Assembly: GCA_014634225.1 (NCBI GenBank)
Contig: BLFN01000089.1
Coordinates: 42,976-60,475 of the forward strand
Source of the DNA: Acropora yongei
Lineage: Eukaryota; Cnidaria; Anthozoa; Scleractinia; Acroporidae
Reading direction: 5' to 3'
Length of the DNA stretch: 17,500 nucleotides
A model generated the notes under the pieces. The model was not told where the DNA came from, did not search any database, and worked only from the letters and a program-made list of their open reading frames with translations. Made by a program: the position numbers and the translations under genes. Position 1 is the first letter of the stretch; every line of letters begins with the position of its first letter. Positions 367-17,500 of the stretch are shown here, piece after piece.

Positions 367-561
367 CTCCAATGACGACAACAGGACAATGTTGCTATTT
401 GTGTTACAGAGAAGTAGCCTACAGCCATTTCTGTAACAAATGCAAACAGGTAGTTTGCACATTTCCATCATGTTCTACATATCATGAGGAAGATGATTCT
501 AAACCATTCTACGTATGTAAAAACTGTGCAGCCCAAGATCCAGAGGATGCATTGCCTTCAG
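367..561 (+). CDS. Exon 1: eight-ligand cross-brace-type zinc finger
   Basis: The exon enters in phase 1 (two bases finish a codon), has a Met codon at 372 that could be the start, and leaves one base before the GTACCT donor at 562. Counting from that Met, ligands are spaced C8-x2-C11-x9-C21-x2-C24-x4-C29-x4-C34-x3-H38-x10-C49-x2-C52. This is two CxxC pairs at the front, a middle group and a final CxxC, the arrangement of FYVE, PHD and RING type fingers that bind two zinc ions. The exact class cannot be decided by eye; the R/K-rich lipid motif of true FYVE domains is absent. The last part (AAQDPEDALPS) begins the acidic linker. Joining to the exon at 5120 completes a Val codon, and phases agree. 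Confidence 0.65.
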
Positions 562-3500
562 GTACCTTTGGAACGTAATAATTTGCAAAGTAATAAAGTT
601 ATTTTTACCTAAAATAAACAATAATAATAGCAGGGAGGAGGAGGTGAAAAGATGATGTGTTGCCATGTAAGACTTGAAAATGACGACAATAATTATTACT
701 TATAGGTAAGCATAAACTGTGAATCATTAACAAGTACACTCTACACACATGCCACAGCAGTTTAAATCTTTTAGTGTGTGGGATAATGTAAAGGTATTAT
801 ATAAGCCATATTATCAATTAAGTCAGCCTTCAATTATTAAACCGTTATTCAATTATAATTCATTATAACAATTTATAATGGATCAATATCAAAGTTAGTT
901 GATTTACTTTCTTTTGGGCTGGATTATGTATACATCAACTGATGGAGTATATCTATTATCATTTATTGTTTCATACAAAGCTACAAGTTTGAATGCCTGT
1001 GACATCAGTGACATAAATAAAGTAAGTTAATATGGAATTCATAAGGACTGTGGTGTCTGCATGTAAATGTTTACTTAAATGTTCTCATGCACAGAAGTAA
1101 CCTAAAGGAGAACTTCCACATGAACCACAAACCAGTCAAAAATCTTAATCCACAAAATAAAGACTAAGTATCTAGAATGCATTTCGTGGATCAAGATTTT
1201 CACAGGTTTTCAGTTCACCTAAAATTTAATGCACTGTGTTTTTAGTAGGGGAAATTGCTGCAATGAGTATATCTTAAATTAACCTAACTAAAAGATACTT
1301 ACACATTATATGATTAGACCATATAGGTATCTCTCCGAACTATGGCAACGTACAGATGTGATCTTACTAGACAGAGTTAATTAGCTAAAGTACAACTGAA
1401 AAAGAAGGCACCTTCAAAAGACCTGGTCTTCTGCTGGATAAAGCAGTCATGGGCAGATATTCCCGCTGAGATGGCGAGGAAATTGTTAAAAAAAAAGCAG
1501 CATCTCAAACACTCTTGACAACACAGAAGATAATGGTGTCTATGCTGTCAACACGCCATAACTAGTTGATGATATGGCAATGAAGAATTGAATGTGAGAC
1601 CAACAGCAAAGACGACAACTGAAAACTTCATTCATGAAGGCACCAAAACAAAATGGCTCCTTTAGGAGCCATCACTTAAATAAAAGTTCATGACCAACAG
1701 AAATGATTCACGTACACAAAGTAATTAATGTGTTTAATTTGTTGATAATGGTTTGGCTTATAGCTGACTATGTTATACAATTCAATTGAAGCTCTTGTAA
1801 CACTAGCAAGAACGTTTTTGGCAGAAATATTCATCTTTAAGCCAAACTGCTCTATCTTGTAGAGATTTCACTGGTTCCCAGGTTAATTTGGTGCATTGGT
1901 GCAAAAATCAATAGGCTCATAGGTGGATAAATGGAAAGTTCTTTTTTAATTGGTAAATTCTGTGTTGTTCTTTACAAAATGAGGGGCATATGATTAGTCC
2001 TGTGTAATACCTGGCACCAAGTTTGACTGGAACGTTTTCTCTCATGACCACTGTGTAGTCATTTTTTTTTTCTTTGGTAGAGTAAGGAGCACCATGATCA
2101 GGAGGCCAACGTACCCAGTGTCTCACGACAAACTGCTCTTATGAATAAAGGTTTGCTTTCTCTCAATTATTAATATAAATGTAAGTGTAAGTTAATTGTG
2201 GCTAAAATTCTCTGTGGTTTGAAAATTTTTAAAACAATATTTGTGTGAATCACACATTTTTCATTTATGATCAGTTTGACACTTCTTCTTAAATAACAAG
2301 GAAAATGGCAAAATGAAGTTCTTTTCTTCATTTACAAGTCTTACCTGTCCAGTATTTATAAAAAAGCTTGCCTGTGCAAGCTTTGATTCATTATTTTTCG
2401 CAGACTGGCGCTAGGCTTTTCGTATTTATTGATGCATAGCGACTGCAAGCGTGCAGTATTTATTAAATTTCTTAGCGTACTGTGGCAACTTCAAATGCCC
2501 TGCAGATTTTTTTAAAATTACATGTCAGACTAACTCGCTAAGGTTTTCTTTTAATTGTTTGTGCGAGCCGAAAAATCAGAGCATGACTTTGTTTAATAAT
2601 CGGCCTTGACAGCCTGGGAGGGGTTGAAATACTTACATATTTTAAATGCTGCCTAATTTGATTTGAAATACATCAGAAGATGTAGATAGTAAATTGTACA
2701 TCAGTCCTATTTATACATCGAAGATCACTGATAACAAATCCTACTGTTGCAATCTCCAATATCCGCACGTAGATAATATTTTGTCTGAAATGTGTTAAAA
2801 TTCTTCATTTTCAAATTTATCACCACGATTCATCATCAATTAAGGACATTAAGGTTTTTTTATTTTTTTTTATTTTGGGAATTGCAGTTGGTAACACGGT
2901 AACAAATGAAGCTGATATTTTACTGCATGCTTTGAAGTAACAATGCAAGTAAACACGACACATGCAATTCAGATAAATGAACTTTTTTTTTCTTCTATCA
3001 AAAATCTATTACATATGCTTAGCTTTCCAACAATGTAAATTTCCATTTTCACAGAAAACCTTAGATACGGAATTGTCATCAATGAAAGACATGGATTTCA
3101 CTTCACATCTTACATGTAAAGTGACTGCATATTTCACAAGAGTCCAATAAAATCCATAAGGCTTAGTGTAAAAAAAATCTAAACAAACACCTATGAGCAA
3201 ATTATCTGAATTCTAGAAAACACAGACTTGTGAGCTGAGGAGCATTTGCCCAATAGGGAACACACCATTGAGAACTCATCAGTTTCTGTGACACCAGAAC
3301 TCCCTCCGTCTTGAATCGCCAGTAAAATGAAAATGGAGACAAATCATATTAAAAGCACCAAACAGGGAATTTATCCAAGCCACCTGTTCAATTCTGAGAG
3401 CAATTTAATACAATAAAAAATAAACTTCCTCTTCTACTAACTGCATCCACTGCAATTGTATTGCAAAATGTACCTTGCATCTTGGTGCAGCCTCTGGCTG

Positions 3501-6500
3501 CCCCTAATTCAACCTACTTCACCAAATAAAGTAAGTATGGATGTATGTATGTATGTATGCATGTATGTATGTACATACGCATGTGACCTACTCAGGCTTT
3601 TCTCGGCAACAAACACATTCTCTTTGCATTAGCATGGTCACAAATCTCTCACAAGTACACCACAACGCATTTTTCAAACGATCATTCAATTCAACATGAC
3701 TATTGTCATCCACAGAATTACCAGCACGTTCTAGCTTCAAACGCAGCCATACTAAAAAATCATAAGTCGGACAGCAAGGCTGTTGCCTAACAGGAGCCCG
3801 GTAGCCTGGGGCTCCCAAAGAATAGCTCTGGGCGCCTTAAGTTTTCACAGCAACACCTTTCACTTCATATGTTGGGCTCCTAAGTTCTCAGCGTTTAGCT
3901 CTGAGGGCCCCTTTAAAATTTTCTTAGGCAGCAGCCTTGGACAGAATAATGTGACAGATATGCGGCCTGGCCGTGAATGTCTGCTCAAAATGGCGGCAAC
4001 CAGTGTCGAACTTTGCACTTCTATTTCATTGGGATTGCATCCACTTCAGAAGCTAAACCGACTAAAATTAATGTGAACTTTTTATTGCTGATGGAAAAAA
4101 TACAAAGTTTTTGGAGTGAACTTCTCCTTTAATAATTAAAGGAATCCAAGACAAAAAGAATTTAAAGCTAAAAAAACAGAAGTTTGAGCCACAACAGATA
4201 CATATCCAATAACACCCTGATTTAAAAAAGTGCCAGAGGACATGAGAAAATGTTTCTTCAATTATTGATCAAACAATGATTAGTTTTCAACATAATTATT
4301 TGTTATATCAGGGTTCTCAGTTAAACAAAACCTTAAGTTATTATTATTAAGGTTTTGTTAAACTGAGAAGCCTGATATAACAAATTTGTTGAAACTTGAC
4401 CAAAACCACTGATAAATTAGGACATAGCTACCATTTTTAGCAACATCATGATTGTCAGTAATAGATGGCTGACTCCTGTGCATATGATGCGATTTTACAT
4501 TCATTTTGTGTTCCTTTTATCGGGTGCCAGTAATGTTTGTCATTCCCAGTTAAATCTGGGTTTTCATTCATACTAACAATTTATTGTAATTCTGGCCTCG
4601 CTGAATGAATTTGTGTGTTAAATCAAGTTCATTCAACCAGGGTGCCACTATATAATAGTTGCACTTACCAATTGACAAAGTTTTACCTATAACCATTATA
4701 TTTAAAACAGGCCATTTTTCGGGTTGAATTATGTGAATCAATGAATCACAAATACATGTAAAAGCTTATATCTTAGTACTAGTATTGGTACTTATTGGAT
4801 GATTCCAGAAAATATCTAGACCCTACAAAGGGTGGCATGAACATTTTAACCCCCCTTGCCTGGGAAAATTCCAAAAATTAATGTTCTACCACCTACATGC
4901 TCTAAACTCAAAAATTGTTAACCTCCCTGTCCCTTCCTGAATTTCCATTCCTTAGATGTACTTCAACCAACTGGAATCCAAGTTTAACTCAAGAGAACTT
5001 CCAATGAAAGAGATTTGCACTTTTACATCTTACCATCATTTTACCAGAAATCTCTCATAGAAAAAATGCACTGAATATTGAGTTGTTTAATAAATAAATG
5101 TAATTTTCTCTCTTTTAAGTATTTGGAAAAAATTGGCACAAAAAAAGTTATGGACATGAGAGTGACATAAGTGAGGATGTACAAGTAAGTTAAAAATATA
5201 AGTCTTATTGCATACTAGTGTGATTGAATGCTGGAGTGGCACTCATTTTGGTGCATATTGGTGCCAAGAAACTAAAGGTTTAAGTTAAAGAAATGAGTCA
5301 TTGATATATAATAGAATTTTGTTCTCAAAGTAGATCAGAATTTGAATTTTAGTAACTTAAGTGAAGTCTCTTTCTTTGACAGAGCAAGAAGCACCAGCAT
5401 GCCAGTATAGCCAATACTTTAACAGGTGATCCAAAATATCAAATATACACACTAATTAAATTTTCTGAAATTTTGTATTGATCAAAATACTGTTATCCAT
5501 TTTTAGTTACAGATGAAATGGTTTTTGATTCAGATGACGACGATGCAGACACGGACATCAGTCCATTATTAATGTATGAACCAATGGTAAGCACCATTAG
5601 ATTTGTATGTAATGTTTAAAAAGCAAGCAGTACTCAGAATGTTTTATCCCATATTTAAAACCTGTGGTGAAGTTTTAAACCTGATAAAACAGAGAGGAAA
5701 GGAAGCATTAGTTTCCATGTTGCAAATAACATTTTTAGACAGTTTGCTTGCAGTTTGCCTCCACAGTACTCAAAACACAGAACTAGTAGCTTCAAATTTC
5801 TGCTATTCACTAGATTTTTACAAGTCAAATGAGTTAAATATTAAACATTTGATCAAGTTAACTGTTTGCAATGACTGTTACCAAACTAAACTATCTTGCA
5901 TTAAGAGTAAGTAAGTAAGAGCAGTTTTCAGTCATCATCATCATCATCATCTTTAGTAATGCATGATACAAAATTGACCAAAATTGGCAGCAAATGAGAC
6001 TGATGTGCAACCAACAAACCCTAACCCAAAACCAATCACGACTTGGTCTGAGCTACGCGCATTTACTTTGAATTCTGCAAGGCTTAAGGTTATGTCAATT
6101 TAAGGTTATGTCAATTTTGTTGTGTACAAAATCTCCCTTTCTGTATATTGGTAACTTCTTCAGGGGCCTTATTCTAGTCTGGGAGACTGGCAGATGTCAA
6201 GATACCAGTAGCCTCCTGATCTCTAAAAGTCAGCACAAGTCTCTTTCGTGTACACCACCCATTTCCATTTTCATCAACAAGTATATCGTTCTTGTTATGA
6301 CAATTTTTGTCCCCGCAACTTGTACAATTGTGAATGAAAATCTTATTTATAGTGGTCATGCACACAGCTTAATACAAACACTAACCTTTAAGCTAGTTTA
6401 CAGGCATGCCATTGGAAGAAAGGAAACAAATATTTCAAATAAACGTAATAGAGTGGTTTAGGGCGCTGTGCAACGTATTACACAAATTCAAACTGCTTTG

Positions 6501-9500
6501 AATTCATTGGGCAAGTCACACAGACTCCAAATTTTGCTTGTCCCGACATGTTAAAATTAAGGCGTATCTACATGATCAATATATTCAATACTTGATGACA
6601 ACTGATCATAATCAACAAATTAATCAATTGATATTACAAATTGATAGAAATTGATTGGTCTCTTTCTTGTGATTAAGGATTTTTATTGACTTTTGTAATA
6701 ATGTGCAGGTCCAGGAAATATCCATACTCCCCCCACAGAAGGGATTGGAATTTCCTGGGGGGTGGGGGGGTTCTAAATCCAAAAAATGTGATGAAATGTG
6801 TGAAGCTTAATTGGAATTTCCAGAGGGTTGAGGAGTCTTAAGAAAAAAATCCCTTCCATAGGGAGATATGAATATTTTCTGGAACTGCACATTAACTCTC
6901 AATTTTATCAATACCAATAGAGTTGAAATCGACAAAGATCATGTCTACATATTCACTGTCCTAAATTGTTCAGTTGTTAAGCGTCAATTAAGCTGATCCA
7001 AAATAAGTATACTAGGTAACATTAGTAGAATTCTATTAGTATACTAATGCAAATGCTACTATCTGATTGGCTGAGCTACTTGTATCCTATCAGTCATTAT
7101 AGTTCACCACTAAATTTTCTACGATTCTTATTGGTTTAACTCGATCAAGTGATGCAACAGTGTTCGTCCGCAGAGAGACACTATCAGCCCATAGTGCCCA
7201 TCCACGGAAAATACCCGGATGGATAGTACTCATTGGTAAAAATACTTCTGTAAACTAGCGACAGAAACAGAAACACTCTATTGTTTAATTAGAGCACAGC
7301 AGCTATTGGTCGTCCACAAAATGCAATGTTTTCATCATTTTTACAAAGTTTTGGAAGAGAGTTTAAACGTAAATGGATAATTAAAGTCCTGAGAAGACTA
7401 TAGAAGGACATTGAAGGTTTTTGACATTAAAAACTTGAAATTATTCAAAAACAGGCACGTGTGCGTAAACAACTGCATATTTACCGCAGACAATTCAATA
7501 TATGCGATTTTGTTAAAGTGTAAAGAGGGTCCTGAAGGGGTGAAATGGGAATTGTGATTTGCCTGTTTTTGCACTGGGAAAATGGGATTTTGGTCACTGG
7601 GACTGGGATTTGAGTCAGAAAAAAAGCCAAAATAGGAAGGGAGTGGTGTTTTGCTAGCACATCAGTGGGATCAGGACACTGGTTAGTGGGATTTGGAAAA
7701 AAATGGTGGCTGGGAAATGGGATTGGTAACACCCCTTCACGACCCTCTGTGAAGTTCAATAAAGCAAGGAAAAATAATTGGAAACCATTATTTATGTTTA
7801 TTTCTGCAGTTAGAATTCTACCAAAACAATTAGCTTATTCGCTCTCAATTTGTATCGGGCGATAGTTGATTTGGCCTTCGAACTCATCAACTATCACCTC
7901 ATAGAAATCTCGAGCTCATAATCTAATATTATTATTGTTAATTAGAGAAAATTACTAACTTACATGGTAATTAAGCCGAAGCTGGCTGATGGTGAGTTTT
8001 TGATTTAGGTGATTGGATTAATCTACGACTCACATTCTTGACTATCAATTTTCATCAACTACATAAAGAAATTTCTGATTATCGATTTCAACAAATTAAA
8101 ATGGCTAATGCATCGACAAATATCGAGTATTATCGATTTATCGATTAGCTTTCCGGCCTATTCGCATTCGATCCCATCTCGGCCTCGAAAGGAAAAGTAC
8201 GAGACACGAATAACAAGTTTTATAGCAAACAACAACTAATATTAGCTCTTAACAACAAAACGTAAAATTGATAAACTGTTCGCACAAAATAGTTCTCAAA
8301 TGCGAGTATGGACTGACCTCGTGTTGCACGTTGCCCTCGTGTTGCACGTTGCCCTGTCAATATAATATTGTGGGCGCAATTTGATGCCACTCACAAGCTA
8401 GTGTAGCGAGTTCTCTGCATATTATCTGTTACTCTATTTCCAGAGACGCAAAAAGATTAGGCCAAACAAATCTTTTCCCCGTAACGCAGTACAATACAAC
8501 TTCGGAATACGAGCAAAAAGGACAGAGTTGCATTCGTCACTTCACTGAAGGCGCGGTAACAAGATTTCGTTCGCGACTCTAACCTCGTCCCCCAGAGCCT
8601 TCTCCGCTTTGAGGATGGCAGGGGCGTAGCCATCTTGAAAAGGTCTGGGGATGACGATGACGTTGACGCGACCTCCAGCAAAGTTTCCAGCAAGGTTTCC
8701 AGCAACGCTACCTCGCCTTTAATTGCAAAACGGCGTGAGAAGCGGGAAAACAACGAATGATACACAGCAAATGCTTTGGACCTTTGTCTTTGTAACATCG
8801 AAAATAAGGTCGATAAGCAAAAATGAACAGCTGTTGCGACCTGGTGTGTCTCGTCAGAGAAAAGAAAAGTAGGACAGTTGCCTTTAAAATGTGCGAATGA
8901 AACCTGTATCAGTGAAGCGGATCACATATTAAGCGGAAACCCTCTAATACAGCGCGAAGCGCGCTACCGTTTCCACCAGACCAAGATTTTTCACGAATTT
9001 CTTGAAAATTCATTCTATGGTTGTTCAAGAACGTCGCGGTAATCTCAAGACTCTTTTCGCACGTAAATTTCAAACTGTCTGAAACACCCCGTCCCTCAAT
9101 CAAAAAGTGTCAGAAAAGTGTCAAAAATCTTTGTCTGGTGGAAACGGTAGCGCGCTTCGCACTGTAAGAGAGTGATAATGGGAATCAAGGTCACGTTTCA
9201 CGGAAAATAAATTGGTTCCGAATTGGCCCTTTCACAGTTCAAGTCACAGGAAATAAAATCGGTATTTCAAGTTACATGAAAAAACTACTTTTTGACACGA
9301 ACTTACCTAACTTATGATAATTGAAAAGTTACGCCCAAAGCACAGCCTTATTAGATGTCGTTATCATCCGCCCGCTTCGCGTTCTGTGCGTAGCAAAAAG
9401 AAATCCCAGCATGAACACGGAGAGTGATGATTGCCCTGTAACAGTTACGCATATTTTTTAATTACGGTCGAAAATGATAATAGACACAACCAGAATCCCA

Positions 9501-12500
9501 GTTCACGACGAATTAAATACTTCTTTCTCATTTCACGGAGAATTATTATGGAAAATCACGGTTCAAGGCCTCTAATGAAATCACGATGCACGAGAAAAAA
9601 ACAAGACATTTCACTTTTCAAGGGAAAAAAATTACGCCATTCATGAATAACGACAATACTCTTTACCACCCTCTGTTAAATGAACACCAGCTTGAGTCCC
9701 AAAATTTTGTTCCTGCTTTTACTGTAAAATAAACATCGGACACCTCTGTTAAACGGGCGCGGAGACTAATATTGAGCAGACAACTCAAAGACTCATTTTC
9801 TTTCTAAAGGTTTAGCTGAGACTCTTTTGTCCAGCGATATTGTTTTAAAGCTAAGTGATTATTTCAGATTGATGCAGTGATCGACTGGACATGGTACTGA
9901 TGAGCAGTCTTTAGCTAGTCTTTGATCTTACACCTGTTACACCGTGTTGCAAAAGGTTAAACAGTTAGTTGCATTTTGTAAAGTGAAAGTTAGCTCGGCA
10001 GGGGTTACTCGGGGGAGGGCTGTCTGGGGTACCCGAGACCATATAAACGGGCCCTAGCTTGCACCAAGTCGGCTGCAACTATAACTGTGTCAACTTCTAA
10101 TTTGTTTAATGTGTCCAGAGGAAGCAGTCAAACAGTATTACAATACCCGGCAGAACTGAGAAATCGTCTGCAAAGCAAAGTTCCCTGTACATTGCATAGC
10201 CCTATTTTGTTCTGTTGTTTGTTTTCAGAAAAGAACAAAGCACACCCGTAGATGCAAGCAAGATATAGAATATTGCCTCATTGATGAGGATGATCGACCC
10301 GTTGACACTGATGACGAGTCAATGTCATCATATGAACCGGATGACGATGATGAAGATGAAGATGAAGATGAAGATGAAGATGAAGATGAGGATGAAGATG
10401 AGGATGAAGATGTAAGTTTTGCAATTTATCCATTTATAAATGTTAACTTTTACAGCTGATTAAACAATATACTCGAACCCCCAAGCCCCAGGGAGTTAGC
10501 GGGATTGGTGTTTGTTAGGCCCAGTTCAGACGTCGTACTTCTGCTGTGCCGAACTAAATTGCAATTTGGTTCGACTGTAGGACGGCAGGAAATCAATTCT
10601 GACTCAGACGTCGGGCCAGAGTCGAATCAAATTCAGGCTTAACTGAAGCCTCGTAAAAATTCTCCTCGTAGGAACGCAATCTCCCCAAAACACATTAACA
10701 TAATCTATGAATTCAGTTTGGCGTGACAGAAGCACGACGTTTGAATCGCAGTCGTGCCGGAGTGTTGTAGCACGGCAGAGCTTGTCGAACTTAATTGCTT
10801 ACCGAACTTAATTCAAAGGTTTGATTCAGAAGCCGTGCAGAAGCCATGCAGAAGCATGACGTCTAAACTGGGCCTTAATCACGATTCAAGGTTCTGAAAA
10901 GTCAATCAGGAACGTAAAAACAGAGTTCGAATGGAGCGAAAGGAAAATAAGATTAGTTTGAGTTAGCGGACAGAAATTTCGAGTCAACCGAGTTCGAGTC
11001 AGCCGATAGTAAATGATTGTAAAAAATGGGGTTAAAACGATTATTCGAGTCGAGTTGTAAAATCACAACCGTGGTCATTTTCGTGGTTGAATTCTACTAT
11101 GCAATTAAAGAACCCTGAATGATAAAAGCTTGCATGGGGCAAACAACTGAGCAATGAAACAATAGATTTGTTTCTTATTATTATTAATATGAGCCAAGAG
11201 ACCTCATCCGCTTGTATGAGTTTAAGAGCCCTTCGTTTTACGAACTAATGTCCCTTCATCCACGATGGAATTTTCTGAAACTTTTTTCAGATTTAATTAG
11301 ATTCTGTGCCACCTTCTTTAATAGCGAACCTCAAGCAGCCATCAAAGATTTTAAAACAGATGTGCTTTTGTCTTATATACAGCAGGGAAAAAAGAATCAC
11401 TCCAGTCAACTAGCCCTGAGACAAGCAGTGACTAAAGGTTCGTTTTGACCTCTCTCTGCATTGATTGTCGTAAATATAAACTCCCATTTGCCTTTCTCTC
11501 TTTCTACTCAAGCATGTTAAGGCATGGCTCACAGCCCAACAGATTGCATAACCTCTCGGTGATCTTAATACCGAAACACTTTCAACTCCTGGGCAACAAT
11601 ATAAAGCATAAAATCATAAATTATTTTTGGTTTTCATTGTTAATTAGTTGGGTCATGCGACCTGTTATCAACTTTTTTTAATTGAAACTTGGGTGTGTAC
11701 ACTTCGGCGACGGCATATCGGGCCCGTTTGGTCTCGTTAAGGCACAATGAATGACGTTTCTATCCTTTCATTGTTTCACAGGCCACTCCCAAACGGAGAA
11801 TGATTTTGACGTCGATGGAAGTGTAAGTTGAAAAAATACCGGGGAAGAACTCATCCTAGTTCGTGCTTTTTGCAACCCTTAAGAAGTTCTCTATTTGTAC
11901 TCTCGTTTCGATGTATATTCTTGCGTATCCTTATTTCATTTTAGAAGCAAAAAAAATGTCCTCGTAGCACTGCTGACGACTGCCTTTCGTCAGTGTATGC
12001 TGGTGGCGATGAAGTTCATTCCGCTGAAACTAAGTCTTGTTTCCTCAGTTCTAATCGAAAAACGTACAAGGACGTAAGCGGTCTTTAGAGTGTTGCCGAG
12101 TCCAACTTCAACTTCAACTTTACTTTATTTAGCACGCGAGTTTTTTAGTTACAATATTAACATTAAAAAACAGGAAAGGATACATTCGTCGTGGCAACTG
12201 GCAGGAGGAAGGACAATACCTTATGTCCATCTCCAGATCTCTTTTCCTCTCAATAGGATAGTGCATTTCAAATAGGCCATTTCCGAGTTCACCTCTGCCT
12301 CCATTTCAAGGCGAGGCTAAGTGCGAAGTCTTTGTTTCATTCATATTGAAATTGCATCTAATTACCATAACAAAAATTTCGCACTTAGACTCGCTTTCAA
12401 GGAGAGATTTAGGCGAACTCGGAAATGGCCTATTAAAGTCGAATACGATAAATCAAAGTAACTCAAAATAGTTTTGTTTTACATGGTTACACCTTACGCT

Positions 12501-15500
12501 GACAATTTAGCATCGCATCGTAGCGCAAATTTTACATCTGTAACAGCTGACAACTACGAATAGTGTTGCCTAACCTTGACGTGGTTGTTCCTCGTATATC
12601 TTTTAGGAATGGTTTTGAGCCGAAAAGAAATGTGATACATGTAGGAGATTATGTTTTGGCTTAGAATTATTACCTTTTGAAGGGTTAAAAAAAAACCTTT
12701 CAAGCCACGCCAGCCACAAGTCAGCATCTTAGTTCCTCTTAGGGTTCTTCTCAAAATTTCCGATGAGCACCCCTGTGCTTTTTCAAATGGGAGTTCTCCG
12801 GGGGCTCAAATATCCCTGATCTCAGAACAAAGAAGCGAAATCAAATCCAAATAAGCCAGTAGGTGGAGTATGGTCCACCGACTGCACGTGTTCAAGTGTT
12901 TCTTGTAGACTAATCAGTCAAGTGACGACCGAAATTCCGGAAACAAGCTCGAGATGCGAGTTATCGGGTGCGAGGATCGAGACGGGAGGAACTGTTAGCT
13001 CAACTTTCAGCCGGCGTTGCTGCATTTTTTGCTTAAAGTGTATATGACACAAAAAATATTTTCTGCTTATTTGAAAGGCCTTTCAAAACATAGAAGAATG
13101 GCGTTTTTCGTTTTGAAATATCTTTTTTTTTATTTTAGAGATATGAACGTTTTTCTATTATGCAAATTAGAAGTTGTAAAAGTTGTAAAAACTGAATAAA
13201 CGACATCTCTGGAAATATTTTCAACTTGGCACCATAAATGTTCATCGCCACAGAAACAAATTACACCCTTAGTGTTGTTGCCATAGGAACTCTTTTGGCT
13301 CCAGTCTCTATCTGTCCAAAAACCAAATATCTTCATTTTCAACCTCCAAGGTGAGACAAAGGGTTCTTCTTGGAGCAGAAATAGTTCCCCTGTTGTCATA
13401 ACCCCCATCAATAGAATGTGTAGGGTAGATGGTTCTTGGTTGAGACAAAAACTGGGAATTTCACTTTAAGACAGCACCAGTGGCAAACCTGTTGTCATGG
13501 CAACACCATTAAGGGATTCGTTTTGTTCCTTTTGTGATGGACATTTATGGTGCCAAGTTTGAAGAACACTGCTTTAATATTTCTAGAGATATCGTTTATT
13601 CAGTTTTTACAAAATTTTCAGTTGCAGTATTATGAAATCATCCCTGATCTAATTTGCATAATAGAAAAACTTCAATATCTCTAAAACGAAAAAAGATATT
13701 TCAAAAATAAAAACGCCATTCTTCTGTATTTTGAAAGGCCTTTCAAATAAACAGAAAATAAGTTTTTGTGTCTTGTACACTTAAATTAGTAACAAGTAAC
13801 AATAATCCGGGGATTTTTAAAGCTAGTTTCCAGTTCCTCTATAATTGATATTTTTCAGTGACTTGTAAGCGACCACCTTCGCATTAAAAATAGGTCATTT
13901 CTGTGGATTCGCACAAAACTCGTTTTGACCTAGAGGGAAAATGCATCTCGGAAATGTATTCATGTCTACGAGGTTTTCCCGTGAAACGAGGACTGAAAGC
14001 ATCCTCTACTCGGGATTACACCCTTGTTCAACGCGGTTCCTCCCGAACGCGACTGCTAATCATTGGCCTGTTCTTTAAAGGTTGATCATGAAGAGCAAGC
14101 GGTACAGGCTGGGAGCTGGAGAGTATCAAACACGTTAGAAAAACCTGCTCCTGTCACTGTGACTAAAAAAGGTACGTTTGTATATAGACAGCAATTTATA
14201 TATCAGAAAATCTGGTTATCGTTTCTACGAGTTGTTTTGGGGACGAGGGTTAATAGAGGATTAACAGTAATTTTTGGCTCTTTCTTGTGATAGGCCCCAA
14301 TTTGTAATTAACCTAACTGATTTTAAAACTCGACTCCAGTCTCCATTTGAATTTTGGAACGGGCAGTAGAACCCACTAACTTGAACTGAGTTAACTTGAA
14401 CACACCGTTAAATCCAGTTTCATTTGGATTTAACACTGCAGCTCTAATTTTTATTTCATTTATTATTGGCAAACTCTTATTCGGTTAACTAGATCTAAGT
14501 CTTGTAGTATAATATAATTCAGAACAAGTCATATCAGGAGTTCATCACTCGGAACGTGCCCTTGTTTCTTTCACGACGTTTTCTCAGACCGACCGTCATA
14601 TAGAATGCTGTTGGTTCATAATTCATATAAATTTTTTGTTTGTAGTGATGTCATCCAAGATCATAATTAAAGACTCCGCCTCCAAAACCCACGTATGTAT
14701 GTTTTGCGGAGAACAACATCTGAAGCTATCCAGACACTTGAAGAGAAAGCACAAAGACGAGGCGATTGTGGCAGAAGCGATGGCCCTCAAGGACGGATCT
14801 AAGGCGTTTGAAAGGATACGTCTCAGGGGAGATTATCACCACAACTGCAATGTTTTGGCCCTCGGCGAGGGAGAGTTGATCGTGGTGCGGAACCCTGGCA
14901 GTAAACAGCCGTTTGGTGATGCCTCGTCGTTTTTACCGTGTCCAGATTGCCTGGGGTTTTTTAAGGGGGACGAGCTTTGGCGTCACAACAAGCGCTGTCA
15001 GCACAAAACAACTGAGCCCAAGAAATGGAAGAAACTGCAGCTTGAGGCCAGGCTTCTGCTGCCCACTGCCTCAACTTCGACGGCAGAAGTGGATAAGGAA
15101 CTATTTTCAAATGTGCTTGCTGTCATGAAAAACGACAGTATCTCCTCCCTGGCCAGACACGATCAAATTATTTTGAAATTTGGAGCTGCAATCTTGGAGA
15201 AGGTCGGAAAGAAGAACTCCAACTATGTCTCGCAAAGGATGCGCCAGCTAGCTAGGCTGCTCACAGTACTGCGAGCGAGAAGCCAGGAGAAGGATGCGGG
15301 GTTAGACAGTTTCATAGACACCTCAAAGTTTGATGATTTGGTTGAGGCGGTCAAGGAGCTATGTAGGTTTAATGAGGAATCCCGATTGGATATCGGGATT
15401 CCATCTCTAGCCCTTAAGCTTGGGCACAGCATCAAGCGCTGTGCTCAAGTCGTCAAGTGTTCTGCACTGCGAAGCAAGAACGAAAATGGGTTCAAGAGAG

Positions 15501-17110
15501 CCAAACGTTTCATTGACCTGTTCGAAAGCGAGTGGACCTCTAAAATAAGTTCACGGTCCCTCGCTTCATTAGGGTCAAAGAAACAAAATAAGGTCGACTA
15601 TCTTCCCCTGGCAGAAAAGACCTAACAAGCCTAAAGAATCATCTGGATTCCAAGATGGAATCATTGTCATCCGCCTTGTCATCCGCCGAAGGGCCGGTTA
15701 ACGTTGAACAGTGGTCCAACCTCGCCAAGTCAACCCTGTCGAGAATAATACTGTTCAATAAGCGAAGATCTGGGGAGACTGCTACTCTAGAGATTTACCA
15801 GTTTGTAAATCGACCGGATTGGAGCTCTTGTAGTAGCGACATGAAGAAGTCCTTGTCTCCTTTAGAAAGGCGACTATGTGAAAGGTACCAAAAGTTCTAT
15901 CATAACCGAAATCAGCAGAATGAAATGAGCACAAGAAAGCTCTGAGTTCCCATCATGTACTGAATGAATATATGCCGAAAAAGAGAAGCCTGTGCAAAAT
16001 TTAGTTCATATACGTATGAAGATAAAATTAAGAATAAACAATTATAAGATAAACCTAGGTCAGCATACTTTTGTTCCAGTTTTGATCCACACATATGGAG
16101 ATAGCGAATCTTTACGGTGAAATTCCAATGTCTCGAAACCTCGATTCCCCAAACCCTCCGATTTCTCGAGCCAAAATACATTTCGCTTTGGTGTGCTTCA
16201 CTATTGTTGTACTCCTATATTTGGCAATTGAGCTCCCGATTTCTCCAGGCACTTTTTTGTTAGGTTCGAGAAATCGGGATTCCACTGTAATAACATTATT
16301 AAACTAACATTGTCTACTGAACATTAAATCTTCAGGCTCGACCTTATTGAAATCACGGGCAAGAGAAACAGAAAAGTGCCGATCCTGCTGACCCCGGAAA
16401 CAAAGTCGGCTATTGAGTTGTTGATTGAAAGACGGCCGACCAGTATTCCAAAAGAAAACCCTTTTGTTTTTGCTCGCGCGACCAAGGGGTCTATAGATCA
16501 TCTCAGAGGCTGGGACTGCGTTTCCAGTAATGTAAAGGAAATTGAGGGTTCACTTCGACAGCCAAAATCGATCACCAGCACGAAACTGAGAAAGTACATC
16601 GCAACGGTGTCACAAACAGCAGCCCTAAGCGAAGTCGATATCGACTGGCTGGCGCGCCATCTTGGACACGATGTCCGCGTACATCGGGAGTTCTATCGCC
16701 TGCACCACTCCACCACAGAACTGGCAAAAGTCAGTAAGCTGCTTCTCGCTGTCGACTCGGGAAACCTAGAAAAAATAGCCGGAAAAAACCTGGGCGAAAT
16801 GTCAGTGGAAGGTACTTAAACACAAAGTTTATTCACTTTTAACGTTGTCAAACGGTTTGCTCAGCACACAAATCTGGCAAAAATAGCTGAAAGGGTGAAA
16901 AGGCGTCTCTGCAAACCCAAGGTCAATATTGTCTTTTTTATTTGCTGAGGAATAAGGAACAAAAACTACGGAAACACAGGGACTCAAACAACTTTGAATA
17001 TTTGAAAAAATCCTTAACTCTGCATATCTGATCAAAAAAGATGTTAACAAACTGAATGTTCTAATTTACAGATATCCCTGACATTACAGACCCTGCCAGT
17101 GAGTCCGAAG
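367..17110 (+). CDS. Multi-exon zinc-finger / tyrosine-recombinase-like protein (Crypton-like family), 12 exons in window, frame broken once
   Basis: Joined exons are 367-561, 5120-5184, 5383-5425, 5507-5586, 10229-10411, 11383-11437, 11782-11822, 11945-12073, 14081-14171, 14646-15884, 16336-16811 and 17072-17110. Seen directly: each junction has GT donor and AG acceptor, phases match throughout, and the spliced frame is open except for one single-base break near 15617. The product has an N-terminal eight-ligand zinc finger, an acidic linker, a C2H2 and a C2HC finger, then a domain with all expected tyrosine-recombinase residues. Known of the fold: such enzymes cut and rejoin DNA through a 3'-phosphotyrosine; Crypton transposons and their domesticated relatives carry them in animals. 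Inferred: a nuclear DNA-binding protein, either a Crypton-derived host gene or a decayed copy. Eleven introns argue against a simple mobile element. The start could be the Met at 372 or lie upstream of the window; the 3' end is not certain. The family is uncharacterised as far as I know, so I give no symbol. Confidence 0.8.
1121..1218. repeat. Imperfect inverted repeat (hairpin)
   Basis: The left arm (1121-1158, around aatcttaatccacaaaat) pairs with the right arm (1181-1218, around atttcgtggatcaagatt). The inner 18 bases match at 16 positions, and weaker pairing extends outward. It looks like a small MITE remnant. Confidence 0.5.
1653..1672. repeat. Perfect 9-bp hairpin resembling a histone 3' stem-loop
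   Basis: atggctcct / aggagccat form a perfect inverted repeat. Read as RNA it gives a GGCUCC stem, UUUA loop and GGAGCC stem, preceded by CAAAA and followed by AUCAC, close to the metazoan histone mRNA stem-loop. The top stem pair is C-G rather than the usual U-A, and no histone reading frame was found upstream. Confidence 0.45.
2011..2132 (-). other. Candidate minus-strand exon, unknown product
   Basis: On the minus strand, a stretch bounded by an acceptor-like AG (gagcag, at the complement of 2133-2134) and a donor-like CCAG|GTATTA (complement of 2009-2010) is open for 40 codons. It includes WPPDHGAPYSTKEKK and DYTVVMRENVPVKLGA. The peptide looks protein-like in composition, but I do not recognise a family. 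It may be an exon of a nested antisense gene or a decayed transposon fragment. Confidence 0.22.
2363..2384. repeat. Short perfect hairpin
   Basis: aaagcttgc and gcaagcttt pair perfectly over nine bases with a four-base loop (ctgt). No neighbouring gene end explains it, so it is listed only as a structure. Confidence 0.5.
3009..3200 (-). other. Weak minus-strand coding-like stretch
   Basis: A 63-codon open frame on the minus strand includes TLHVRCEVKSMSFIDDNSVS followed by a Cys-containing segment (FCENGNLHCW). An acceptor-like tgcag lies just ahead of TLHVRC. The composition is protein-like, but no family is recognised and no splice partner can be shown. It lies between two other minus-strand candidates, which is the only reason to note it. 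Confidence 0.15.
3537..3578. repeat. (ATGT)n microsatellite
   Basis: About eight to nine ATGT units with interruptions (atgc, then gtacatacgc at the right end). It directly abuts the 3' side of the minus-strand P2RX7_C-like stretch. Confidence 0.9.
3588..3818 (-). pseudogene. Decayed P2RX7 C-terminal-domain-like fragment
   Basis: The minus-strand frame of 76 codons ends with WCTCERFVTMLMQRECVCC (complement of 3606-3662) then REKPE and a stop at 3588-3590. Known family pattern: the Cys-rich P2X7 C-terminal domain, also common as a stand-alone domain in invertebrates, has W-C-x-C-G-x-C-x-x-M-P-T-x-x-E-x-x-C-C-x-E. Spacing matches exactly here, but the third Cys is Phe, the Gly is Glu and the Pro is Leu, and the frame stops just before the rest of the domain should follow. 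I infer a degraded exon or retro-copy nested in intron 1, antisense to the host gene. It shows no relation to the recombinase gene. A live exon with an unusual sequence is possible but less likely, because the ATGT repeat starts about ten bases past the stop. Confidence 0.45.
4298..4385. mobile_element. Near-perfect 39-bp-arm hairpin (MITE-like)
   Basis: Arms 4298-4336 and 4347-4385 pair with two mismatches around a ten-base AT loop (gttattatta). Weaker pairing continues outward (gttttcaaca at 4283-4292 with tgttgaaac at 4387-4395). No coding capacity. Such long, young-looking arms suggest a small non-autonomous element or a palindromic duplication. Confidence 0.6.
4800..4960. repeat. Degraded repeat related to the MITE at 6699
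   Basis: The stretch begins gattccagaaaatatctaga and has purine/pyrimidine runs and aaattccaaaa-type motifs that resemble the terminal and internal parts of the element at 6699-6894. No intact terminal inverted repeat remains. Confidence 0.3.
5120..5184 (+). CDS. Exon 2: acidic/basic linker
   Basis: Acceptor TCTTTTAAG and donor GTAAGT (5185) are both strong. Two leading bases complete the Val codon begun in exon 1, and the exon ends on a codon boundary. It encodes FGKNWHKKSYGHESDISEDV-Q, a hydrophilic segment with no fold signature. The other two frames are closed by stops, which supports the frame. Confidence 0.7.
5383..5425 (+). CDS. Exon 3: short Ser/His/Lys linker
   Basis: Acceptor CTTTGACAG, donor GTGATC (weak, lacks the usual GTRAG). 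It encodes SKKHQHASIANTLT and leaves one base. The short intron that follows is only 81 bases. Phases agree on both sides. Confidence 0.65.
5507..5586 (+). CDS. Exon 4: acidic linker
   Basis: Acceptor CCATTTTTAG, donor GTAAGC. Two bases complete a Val codon with exon 3 and the exon ends on a codon boundary. It encodes TDEMVFDSDDDDADTDISPL then LMYEPM. The other frames stop early. A Ser/Asp-rich run like this often marks casein kinase 2 sites or charged linkers in nuclear proteins (inference). Confidence 0.7.
5932..5951. repeat. (TCA)n simple repeat
   Basis: About six uninterrupted TCA units just downstream of a (GTAA)n run at 5907-5919, both inside intron 4. Confidence 0.85.
6084..6115. repeat. 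Tandem duplication, 16-bp unit x2
   Basis: ttaaggttatgtcaat occurs twice in perfect tandem (6084-6099 and 6100-6115). Confidence 0.85.
6699..6894. mobile_element. 196-bp MITE with about 47-bp terminal inverted repeats
   Basis: The left end starts taatgtgcaggtccag and the right end, read on the other strand, starts taatgtgcagttccag; similarity continues to about 6745 and from about 6849. The interior is rich in G and C runs. No coding capacity. The superfamily is not clear from the ends. Confidence 0.7.
7524..7748. mobile_element. 225-bp MITE-like element with 19-bp terminal inverted repeats
   Basis: agagggtcctgaaggggtg at 7524-7542 pairs with caccccttcacgaccctct at 7730-7748 with one mismatch. 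The interior is a degenerate series of gggatt/gggaaatggg motifs. Open frames on both strands here are by-products of that low-complexity interior. Confidence 0.65.
8104..8149. repeat. AT-rich imperfect hairpin with atcgat motifs
   Basis: gctaatgcatcgacaaatat near 8104 pairs imperfectly with tatcgatttatcgattagc ending at 8149. It may be the end of a larger degraded element that includes the perfect ten-base hairpin gatagttgat / atcaactatc at 7861-7894. Confidence 0.35.
8317..8352. repeat. Tandem duplication, 18-bp unit x2
   Basis: cctcgtgttgcacgttgc is repeated perfectly at 8317-8334 and 8335-8352. Confidence 0.9.
8675..8710. repeat. Tandem 12-bp unit, about three copies
   Basis: ccagcaaagttt, ccagcaaggttt and ccagcaacgcta follow one another without spacing; the third copy is diverged. 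On the minus strand it gives the repeated LLETLLET peptide of an unsupported open frame. Confidence 0.8.
8942..9172. mobile_element. 231-bp MITE with about 50-bp terminal inverted repeats
   Basis: Left end ctctaatacagcgcgaagcg (8942 on) and right end (to 9172) are inverted copies with few mismatches through gctaccgtttccaccaga and on to about 8992. The interior has no coding signature. The arms contain gcgcgaagcgcgc, itself near-palindromic. Confidence 0.75.
10229..10411 (+). CDS. Exon 5: basic stretch followed by 24-residue Asp/Glu run
   Basis: Acceptor TTGTTTGTTTTCAG and donor GTAAGT are both strong. The exon is exactly 61 codons, phase 0 to 0. It starts with KRTKHTRRCKQDIEYCLIDE, which could serve as a basic nuclear-localisation type patch (inference), and ends with 24 consecutive acidic codons (10340-10411) made mostly of GATGAA units. 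The stretch keeps Asp/Glu coding even where the repeat unit varies (GAT GAG, GAC), consistent with selection for acidity. Confidence 0.75.
10412..11382 (+). other. Intron 5
   Basis: 971 bases. It contains the Harbinger-like MITE at 10518-10874. On both sides lie clusters of cgaaccc, gttcgagt and cgagtcaaccgagttcgagt motifs (about 10471-10515 and 10920-11060), which suggests the MITE landed in an older repeat. Nothing else is seen in the rest, and the open frame from 11212 lies on the intron side of the acceptor. Confidence 0.5.
10515..10877. mobile_element. Harbinger-like MITE with TTA target-site duplication
   Basis: The element proper is 10518-10874 (357 bp), flanked by TTA at 10515-10517 and 10875-10877. 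Its ends are GGCCCAGTTCAGACGTC (left) and, on the opposite strand, GGCCCAGTTTAGACGTC (right). Known of PIF/Harbinger elements: 3-bp TWA or TTA duplications and GC-starting short inverted repeats. There is no transposase frame, so it is non-autonomous. Confidence 0.75.
11383..11437 (+). CDS. Exon 6: short linker with NAGNAG acceptor
   Basis: The acceptor is tatatacag followed at once by a second cag, so splicing could start at 11383 or 11386 with the difference of one Gln. It encodes QGKKNHSSQLALRQAVTK and one leftover base. The donor GTTCGT is weak. The phase (0 in, 1 out) fits both neighbours, which is the main support. Confidence 0.55.
11438..11781 (+). other. Intron 6
   Basis: 344 bases, AT-rich, ending in ttgtttcacag. 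No repeat or gene is recognised in it. Confidence 0.5.
11782..11822 (+). CDS. Exon 7: micro-exon
   Basis: 41 bases, acceptor TTGTTTCACAG, donor GTAAGT. Two bases finish a Gly codon, then HSQTENDFDVDGS. One of the other frames contains a stop. Both sites are strong and the phase fits exons 6 and 8. Confidence 0.6.
11945..12073 (+). CDS. Exon 8: Ser/Cys-containing linker
   Basis: Acceptor TTATTTCATTTTAG, donor GTAAGC. 43 codons exactly, phase 0 to 0, starting KQKKCPRSTADDCLSSVYAG and ending SSNRKTYKD. Hydrophilic, no domain recognised. The four Cys are not spaced like a zinc finger. Confidence 0.6.
12271..12434. mobile_element. 164-bp fold-back MITE with 20-bp perfect terminal inverted repeats
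   Basis: aataggccatttccgagttc (12271-12290) is the exact reverse complement of 12415-12434. A second inverted pair lies inside: cgaggctaagtgcgaa with ttcgcacttagactcg, one mismatch. The target duplication is not clear. Confidence 0.8.
13033..13784. mobile_element. 752-bp fold-back element with about 250-bp arms
   Basis: The left arm (13033 to about 13287) and right arm (about 13490 to 13784) are inverted copies with mismatches and small gaps. Ends are TTAA-AGTGTATATGACACAAAA and, inverted, a TTAA-GTGTACAAGACACAAAA version. Each arm contains the perfect palindrome TTTGAAAGGCCTTTCAAA (13070-13087 and 13730-13747). TTAA at both ends could be a piggyBac-type target duplication or part of the repeat. 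No transposase. Confidence 0.75.
14081..14171 (+). CDS. Exon 9: linker before the C2H2 finger
   Basis: Acceptor CTGTTCTTTAAAG, donor GTACGT. It encodes VDHEEQAVQAGSWRVSNTLE then KPAPVTVTKK and leaves one base, which with TG from exon 10 makes a Val codon. Phases fit both neighbours. Confidence 0.65.
14172..14645 (+). other. Intron 9
   Basis: 474 bases, AT-rich, ending in ttttttgtttgtag. It has a small hairpin (gttaaatcc / ggatttaac, 14408-14433). Nothing else is recognised. Confidence 0.5.
14646..15884 (+). CDS. Exon 10: C2H2 and C2HC fingers, core-binding-like region and first half of recombinase domain; frameshifted
   Basis: It opens with two bases completing a Val codon, then Met-Ser-Ser. 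Zinc fingers: C-x2-C-x9-H-x4-H at 14696-14752 and C-x2-C-x11-H-x3-C at 14939-14998, with the family-typical stretch HHNCNVLALGEGELIVVRNP between them. A helical region follows (SLARHDQIILKFG, then YVSQRMRQLARLLTVLR) that corresponds to the core-binding part of related proteins. The frame then stops at 15623-15625 after LPLAEKT; the reading frame one base back continues DLTSLKNHLDSKMESLSS as the family expects. Box I of the recombinase is FNKRRSGE, its Arg codon at 15766-15768. The donor GTACCA at 15885 leaves two bases and completes Arg with exon 11. A separate gene starting at the Met at 15655 is less likely. Confidence 0.75.
15376..15402. repeat. Perfect 11-bp hairpin inside the coding exon
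   Basis: ggaatcccgat and atcgggattcc flank a five-base loop. It encodes part of ESRLDIGIPS. Its arm shares ggaatcccgatt with the terminal repeat of the element at 16115-16287. Confidence 0.6.
15885..16335 (+). other. Intron 10 with a MITE
   Basis: 451 bases, donor GTACCA, acceptor TAAATCTTCAG. It contains the element at 16115-16287. The codons that run on past the donor (ending STRKL) do not fit the family, whereas splicing here restores LCER-LDLIEITGKRNRK, which does. Confidence 0.6.
16113..16289. mobile_element. Pogo/mariner-like MITE with TA target duplication
   Basis: The element 16115-16287 (173 bp) is flanked by TA at 16113-16114 and 16288-16289. Right end inverted: CAGTGGAATCCCGATTTCTC; left end: CGGTGAAATTCCAATGTCTC. 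Known of Tc1/mariner elements: TA duplications, and pogo/Tigger types often begin CAG. Internal extra copies of cgatttctcga occur. No transposase frame. Confidence 0.65.
16336..16811 (+). CDS. Exon 11: catalytic half of the tyrosine-recombinase-like domain
   Basis: The first base completes the Arg codon of exon 10; one base is left at the GTACTT donor. The peptide contains the beta-hairpin Lys region (GKRNRKVPILLTP, 16358 on), then SITSTKLRKYIAT with the second catalytic Arg codon at 16589-16591, then LARHLGHDVRVHREFYR with His at 16667-16669 and the nucleophile Tyr at 16694-16696. The following helix (AKVSKLLLAVDSGNLEKI) and GKNLGEM are typical of this family's end. The usual His of the H-x-x-R box is Thr here, as I recall for the family (STKLRK). 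Known: Arg-Lys-Arg-His-Tyr perform strand cleavage. With all five present in place, catalysis is possible in principle if the frame upstream is intact. Confidence 0.85.
17072..17110 (+). CDS. Exon 12: acidic tail
   Basis: Acceptor GTTCTAATTTACAG, donor GTAGGT. Two bases complete an Asp codon with exon 11; then IPDITDPASESE and one leftover base. Strong sites and matching phase. The protein goes on beyond this exon. Confidence 0.6.
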
Positions 17111-17500
17111 GTAGGTCAGATCTTGCACGTCCTTTGTATATCATATCACCAACGTCATTGCAACGATATAAAAAAATTAAACATCCAGGTTTTAAAAGCT
17201 GTAGTACCAAGTGTGATAGCAACAATTCTCGTTTCCAATGAGTGCGATCTGTTTGGCCAACTCCAAGAATCGAGACCGATTTTGAGAGCCTCAGCAGAAT
17301 CTGTCTGTCATACTCAATTTCTTGGAGCTGAGTGGAAGAATCCCAATGCAGAGTAACGCTCTTTCATTTCACAAGTCGTGTTATTGTAATAACGAATAAG
17401 TGCCATTCGTATATAGTAGTTACATAGTAGTTATATGTAATATAACATGTTACATGTTATATAGTAGTTATAAGTAATATTATTTCTCATTAATCATCAT
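17111..17500 (+). other. Region after exon 12: intron, possible terminal exon, AT-rich palindrome
   Basis: The phase of exon 12 could be met by an acceptor at 17187-17188 (acatccag) opening a short exon 17189-17241 that encodes GFKSCSTKCDSNNSRFQ and stops at TGA. That acceptor has a poor pyrimidine tract, so this is only a possibility. The far end (17400-17480) is AT-rich with repeated tagtagtta and a palindrome at 17440-17462 (atataacatg / catgttatat). Confidence 0.3.

Follow-up and report, generated by a model that had tools for sequence, protein, structure and literature searches.

The window analyzed here, a stretch of 17,500 bases, is the last part of a 60,475-base contig (C39) in the 405 Mb, 365-contig genome assembly of the coral Acropora yongei. 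Its plus strand carries an intron-rich gene for a protein with a tyrosine-recombinase (YR) domain, preceded by zinc fingers and an acidic linker and, further upstream, by a finger exon whose link to the recombinase is unproven. Two long exons encode the core of the protein. Exon 11 (14646..15884) covers a C2H2 finger, a C2HC finger, the helical core-binding region and the start of the YR catalytic domain with an active-site Arg, and exon 12 (16336..16811) continues the catalytic domain with the active-site Lys, Arg, His, and Tyr. An earlier note, made from the sequence alone, had named the two fingers, the helical region and the YR domain, and homologues, alignment, and a structure model bear out all of them. 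The active-site residues R, K, R, H, and Y are conserved in the family alignment and in exons 11 and 12 of the window. The model of the nearest long homologue has the core-binding and catalytic fold of tyrosine recombinases and matches XerH, lambda integrase, and Cre at 9–16% identity. Catalytic box II of exon 12 (TSTKLRKYIAT) looks closer to that of type IB topoisomerases than to the phage-integrase HxxR motif.

No piece of the window exceeded the Pfam cut-off, and the check for DUF3504 and Phage_integrase that the earlier note had proposed came back empty (no window piece matched either at E ≤ 1). Among 43 family members, four matched Phage_integrase (best E 0.014), and the 15 Pfam families matched by these members at E ≤ 0.1 did not include DUF3504. 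Searching solved structures by sequence profile gave four matches, all of them weak (E of 0.43 at best). Of the family, 36/121 proteins end in a Trp-containing domain of ~60 residues, which we named Myb-like by eye; it is common to coral, octocoral, beetle, fish, and mollusc members, and was detected with a profile built from the C-termini of eight proteins (P0008, P0017, P0024, P0028, P0073, P0074, P0075, and P0097). The Pfam table of the 43 members contained no Myb family. In the A. yongei gene this domain would fall past the contig end: exon 13 closes at 17110 with the donor GTAGGT and the gene runs on, and the contig stops with the window. The C-terminal domain was not found elsewhere in the A. 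yongei genome with a joined tail query or with P0008, an empty answer that says little.

Family members were found in corals, an octocoral, an anemone, beetles, fish, and molluscs, and the closest named homologues come from Acropora (63–71%) and Montipora (70–72%). A literature search by title and abstract retrieved no published description of this gene or of an anthozoan host YR. A viral carrier was considered and dropped, as no relative was present in the viral_contigs set and all 38 pattern matches failed tblastn. The earlier note described the closest relatives as multi-copy, which is untrue of this genome. A count of paralogues across the 405 Mb gave a single close copy of the YR exons (all genome-search counts are lower bounds). 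Exon 12 matched itself and one 37% relative on contig C86, exon 11 matched itself and, at 41%, an 89-residue piece on contig C207, and 2,166 bases of gene DNA matched only themselves. A control repeat from one of the gene's introns (13051–13766) gave 34 matching stretches, three of them its own copy and the rest at 20 places on 18 other contigs. The C86 and C207 pieces form a second lineage, nearer to P0119 (77% over 53 amino acids and 48%). The former (C86:228537–229235; L006, L013, and L016) is a decayed relative in which the second catalytic Arg is gone (LGKY instead of LRKY), and the latter (C207:1426916–1427191, minus strand; L008) is a zinc-finger fragment whose longer match has one TGA stop.

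The intron between exons 11 and 12 carries information on age. The junction corresponds to residue 623 of the Acropora homologue P0001. Among 120 homologues compared at this point, 100 continue across it, 18 stop at or close to it, and two were left unjudged. Fifteen of those that stop do so exactly at the junction, P0020 and P0010 within five residues, and P0117 21 residues further on; P0003, P0119, and P0094 extend for 19, 7, and 41 unrelated residues. A quick tree was built from the window and 60 of these 120 proteins (61 rows). Similarity is lost at the junction in all 14 unnamed open reading frames (ORFs) inside its anthozoan clade, and all 12 outside pass through. Across the 27 rows scored, which excluded spliced gene models, the intron maps on the tree as a single change; the mapping takes the unnamed proteins to be ORF calls made without splicing. 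P0116, which also stops at the junction, groups with the octocoral Dendronephthya (support 100), so this intron probably predates the split between hexacorals and octocorals. In the C86 relative, the acceptor lies at the same base and the intron measures ~180 bases. A conserved intron position among orthologues is established for the exon 11/12 junction, the one compared. The tree is compatible with vertical descent, with the deepest anthozoan forks open.

The single copy, the old intron, the conserved active site, and the decayed sister copies fit a host gene that is old in anthozoans and stems from a mobile element with a YR, a reading to which we give about an even chance. The proposal of the earlier note, a host-captured recombinase rather than a plain transposon, thus stands in part: the lone copy of the YR exons and the old anthozoan intron speak for it, and the frame break described below and the mobile-looking wider family speak against it. 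The broader claim, that an ancient nuclear YR gene of mobile-element origin has come down vertically in corals, anemones, and octocorals with its active site still under selection, we consider rather unlikely.

Several observations weigh against the host-gene reading. The 22-row anthozoan clade has an SH-aLRT support of 90, which is not strong. Two proteins each are listed for Acropora muricata, Montipora foliosa, and Dendronephthya, showing that copy number is not one everywhere. The comparison of constraint that bears on purifying selection (93% vs 79%, p 0.04) covers 19 intron codons. Masking of the upstream flank, together with the end of the contig at the end of the window, restricts the view of element ends. 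In the active site, the first His of HxxR is replaced by Thr in 85/87 proteins and in the window; the best Foldseek match reached E 1.1e-3, and residues 738–746 of the model, which hold the catalytic Tyr, have a predicted local distance difference test (pLDDT) score below 50. Finally, the single copy is broken in frame, exon 11 being covered by two overlapping open frames with a net shift (14513–15625 and 15592–15945).

The frame break, the paired coral and octocoral proteins, and the mobile-looking wider family keep alive the main rival, in which the window holds the last, breaking copy of a low-copy, intron-bearing anthozoan lineage of YR DNA transposons (Crypton-like, perhaps CryptonV). The wider family extends to beetles, fish, and molluscs and to many unnamed contigs, and two divergent listed proteins each were found in the beetles Psylliodes and Abscondita and the fish Paramisgurnus. 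The decayed second-lineage pieces on C86 and C207 are also in line with transposition, and CryptonV, some families of which target microsatellites, is recorded from cnidarians in the available part of PMC8869645. The rival has more difficulty with the presence of one close copy in 405 Mb, with the same intron throughout the anthozoan clade, and with a tree that fits vertical descent, its deepest anthozoan forks being open. On balance, a transposon lineage appears possible, though on the unlikely side.

The frame break itself (15592..15625) lies where the two frames overlap, at a site that relatives such as P0003, P0005, and P0006 read through without interruption. A 22-base GT..AG stretch at the break was not taken as an intron because of its length and because it covers residues conserved in the family (P534 and D538, in 94/94). 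Either the assembly is wrong at this point or the frame was lost recently. A host gene that has since turned into a pseudogene in this lineage would agree with the break, and also with the outcome that the Montipora homologue P0008 finds no 3' end elsewhere in the assembly. However, the missing 3' end is explained by the contig ending where the window does, the break is the only one noticed in exons 11 and 12, and the splice sites and active-site residues are intact; we judge a pseudogene to be quite improbable.

Known YR systems resemble the A. yongei gene in part. Cryptons (CryptonA/I and CryptonV) are alike in that YR is the sole enzyme seen, and they occur in animals including cnidarians, as given in the available parts of PMC3212892 and PMC8869645. 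Of the Crypton tetrad R-H-R-Y, the family keeps R, R, and Y, with Thr in place of H. The C-terminal Myb-like domain is a second difference, animal Cryptons being described without a C-terminal domain in the available part of Kojima and Jurka (PMC3212892). The A. yongei gene also differs in being single-copy with many introns, a contrast in which CryptonV is compared by description only. Repetition of the Crypton type was not found in the genome (one DNA match, the gene itself, against 20 other places for the control repeat). The DUF3504 genes (ZMYM2/3/4, QRICH1, KCTD1, KIAA1958, and WOC) are likewise host genes made from a YR and longer than the YR part. The human ones have lost the catalytic Tyr and the second Arg according to the accessible portion of Kojima and Jurka (PMC3212892), whereas both are present in the A. 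yongei gene. XerH/XerA, lambda integrase, Cre, and the Tn1549 integrase show the low identities given above and differ by the Thr for the first His and by the added zinc fingers and linkers of the coral protein. ALOG-type DIRS1 retroposons, remnants of which occur in Nematostella and Acropora, also combine a YR with a zinc-binding addition. In that group, however, the zinc ribbon lies within the core-binding domain (PMC3537659, available part), whereas the C2H2 and C2HC fingers of the A. yongei gene precede it. No reverse transcriptase was noticed by eye among the window ORFs.

As an old host gene, the locus would encode a protein whose fingers, perhaps with a C-terminal Myb-like domain past the window, take it to particular DNA sites. 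There, the core-binding helices and the catalytic domain would clamp the DNA. Since the catalytic Tyr and the residues that work with it are retained, the protein can probably still break and reseal a strand; it would then act as a site-specific recombinase or resolvase and not merely as a DNA-binding regulator. If true, the enzyme itself may have been adopted, unlike the known domesticated animal YR genes without a catalytic Tyr, such as the human Crypton-derived genes with their lost active site (PMC3212892, in the part available). Catalytic residues in a single-copy, intron-rich anthozoan gene would raise the question of which DNA gets rearranged.

Across the span of the gene, the window letters contain 13 AG/GT-bounded blocks with an open frame. 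Splice sites were ranked against all AG and GT sites of the window using a simple consensus score, and phases were worked through by hand. All 13 donors fell in the best 10% of GT sites, as did 12 of 13 acceptors among AG sites (the exception being exon 12, best 23%). Exon 1 (372..561, 63 codons) ends in phase 1. It is followed by block 2 (2081..2150, 0→1, acceptor in the top 0.4%), exon 3 (5120..5184, 1→0, with good splice sites), exon 4 (5383..5425, 0→1, acceptor unbeaten in the window at 0.0%), exon 5 (5507..5586, 1→0) and exon 6 (10229..10411, 0→0). Blocks 7 (11291..11437, 1→1, open from AG to GT) and 8 (11782..11822, 1→0, acceptor in the top 0.1%) precede exon 9 (11945..12073, 0→0) and exon 10 (14081..14171, 0→1, donor in the top 0.3%, with a phase that suits exons 9 and 11). 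Exon 11 (1→2), exon 12 (2→1) and exon 13 (17072..17110, 1→1) complete the series; exon 13 starts a C-terminal acidic tail, matches the P0001 motif DIPDIT and has a donor in the top 0.1%. Ten of the blocks (1, 3, 4, 5, 6, 9, 10, 11, 12, and 13) form a chain that is mutually in phase. Exon 1 fits exon 3 and cannot join block 2, which starts in phase 0 (or in phase 2 from 2083), and blocks 7 and 8 are out of phase after exon 6. A relaxed-threshold scan found no bridging exon of the required phase in 620–2040 or 10470–11240; the sole candidate is 19 bases long and useful only if block 2 began at 2083. The twelve exons with consistent phases listed in the earlier note are thus upheld as to splice sites and the ten-block chain, and fail at the junctions of exon 1 with block 2 and of exon 6 with blocks 7 and 8, and at the frame break in exon 11. 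Blocks 7 and 8 perhaps belong to an alternative transcript. Chance exons are ruled out, as homologues cover 97% of exons 11 and 12 and as exons 3–6 are collinear with P0001.

This collinearity takes in the last part of exon 3 and the whole series of exons 4 to 6, including the acidic-linker exons 5 and 6. The joined sequence aligned with the N-terminal part of P0001 at a score of 160, which 0/300 shuffles reached; P0001 starts differently from the window gene, and the collinear stretch comes after this start. Compared singly with P0001, block 2 (residues 32–52), exon 6, and exon 9 scored above all 300 shuffles, and exon 5 was reached by seven of 300. Exons 1, 3, 4, 7, 8, and 10 were unremarkable (63, 135, 120, 101, 188, and 280 of 300 shuffles, respectively). 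Exon 6 (43% identity over 37 residues, E 1e-6 in a database of 120) contains an Asp/Glu repeat encoded by a GATGAA array (10349–10412). The likeness of exon 9, a further linker exon like exon 10, is to P0001 residues 98–115, the same stretch that exon 6 resembles. Duplication of exons 2/4 and 6/9, which look alike by eye, is not claimed, as neither pair fell under 50/500 shuffles. Nor is it claimed for two other similar pairs, exons 5/6 (0/500 shuffles, both acidic) and 4/10 (16/500, five residues).

Exon 1 encodes a Cys/His-rich, FYVE/PHD-like finger with a weak likeness to Pfam FYVE (E 0.063, short of the cut-off), and is single in its own genome. P0121, a 69-residue ORF, shares the finger at 88% identity, and the similarity stops inside the predicted donor, which supports exon 1 as a coding exon ending in phase 1. 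The fold of exon 1 alone is uninformative (mean pLDDT 52). From its sequence, the finger is a real, conserved coding exon. The "added N-terminal finger" of the earlier note is thereby half retained: the exon stands, and its attachment to the recombinase is unproven, given the phase conflict with block 2 and the listed homologues, none of which carries the finger (0/120). The latter count was obtained with a pattern and a two-sequence profile that recovered the control P0121, many of the entries being partial. The finger exon, with or without block 2, may thus come from another transcript, the protein starting further downstream, an alternative that is compatible with any of the readings above. 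Residues 1–190 of the spliced model also matched no protein at E ≤ 1e-3 among 525 candidates, a weak negative since the search missed P0001 as well, although P0001 resembles exons 4–6. Against a separate transcript, exon 1 is conserved and closes with a donor, and it sits upstream of exon 3 on the same strand and in a fitting phase; many of the coral entries, moreover, are ORFs of one exon, in which the finger could not appear. We hold a separate transcript to be a serious possibility that falls short of an even chance.

Repeats occur in the introns of the gene and near the end of the window. Short tandem or direct repeats at 8317–8355 (18-nt unit, 2.2 copies) and 17419–17480 (25-nt pair) have no clear meaning. 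Shorter inverted repeats lie at 8942–9172, 12271–12434, and 4298–4385 (arms of 61, 66, and 39 nt, respectively), and these three are perhaps remnants of small mobile elements. The control repeat in the intron before exon 10 (13051..13766) has long inverted arms (92 nt, 86% complementary), and its 68–83% identity to the 20 other places marks it as an old insertion.
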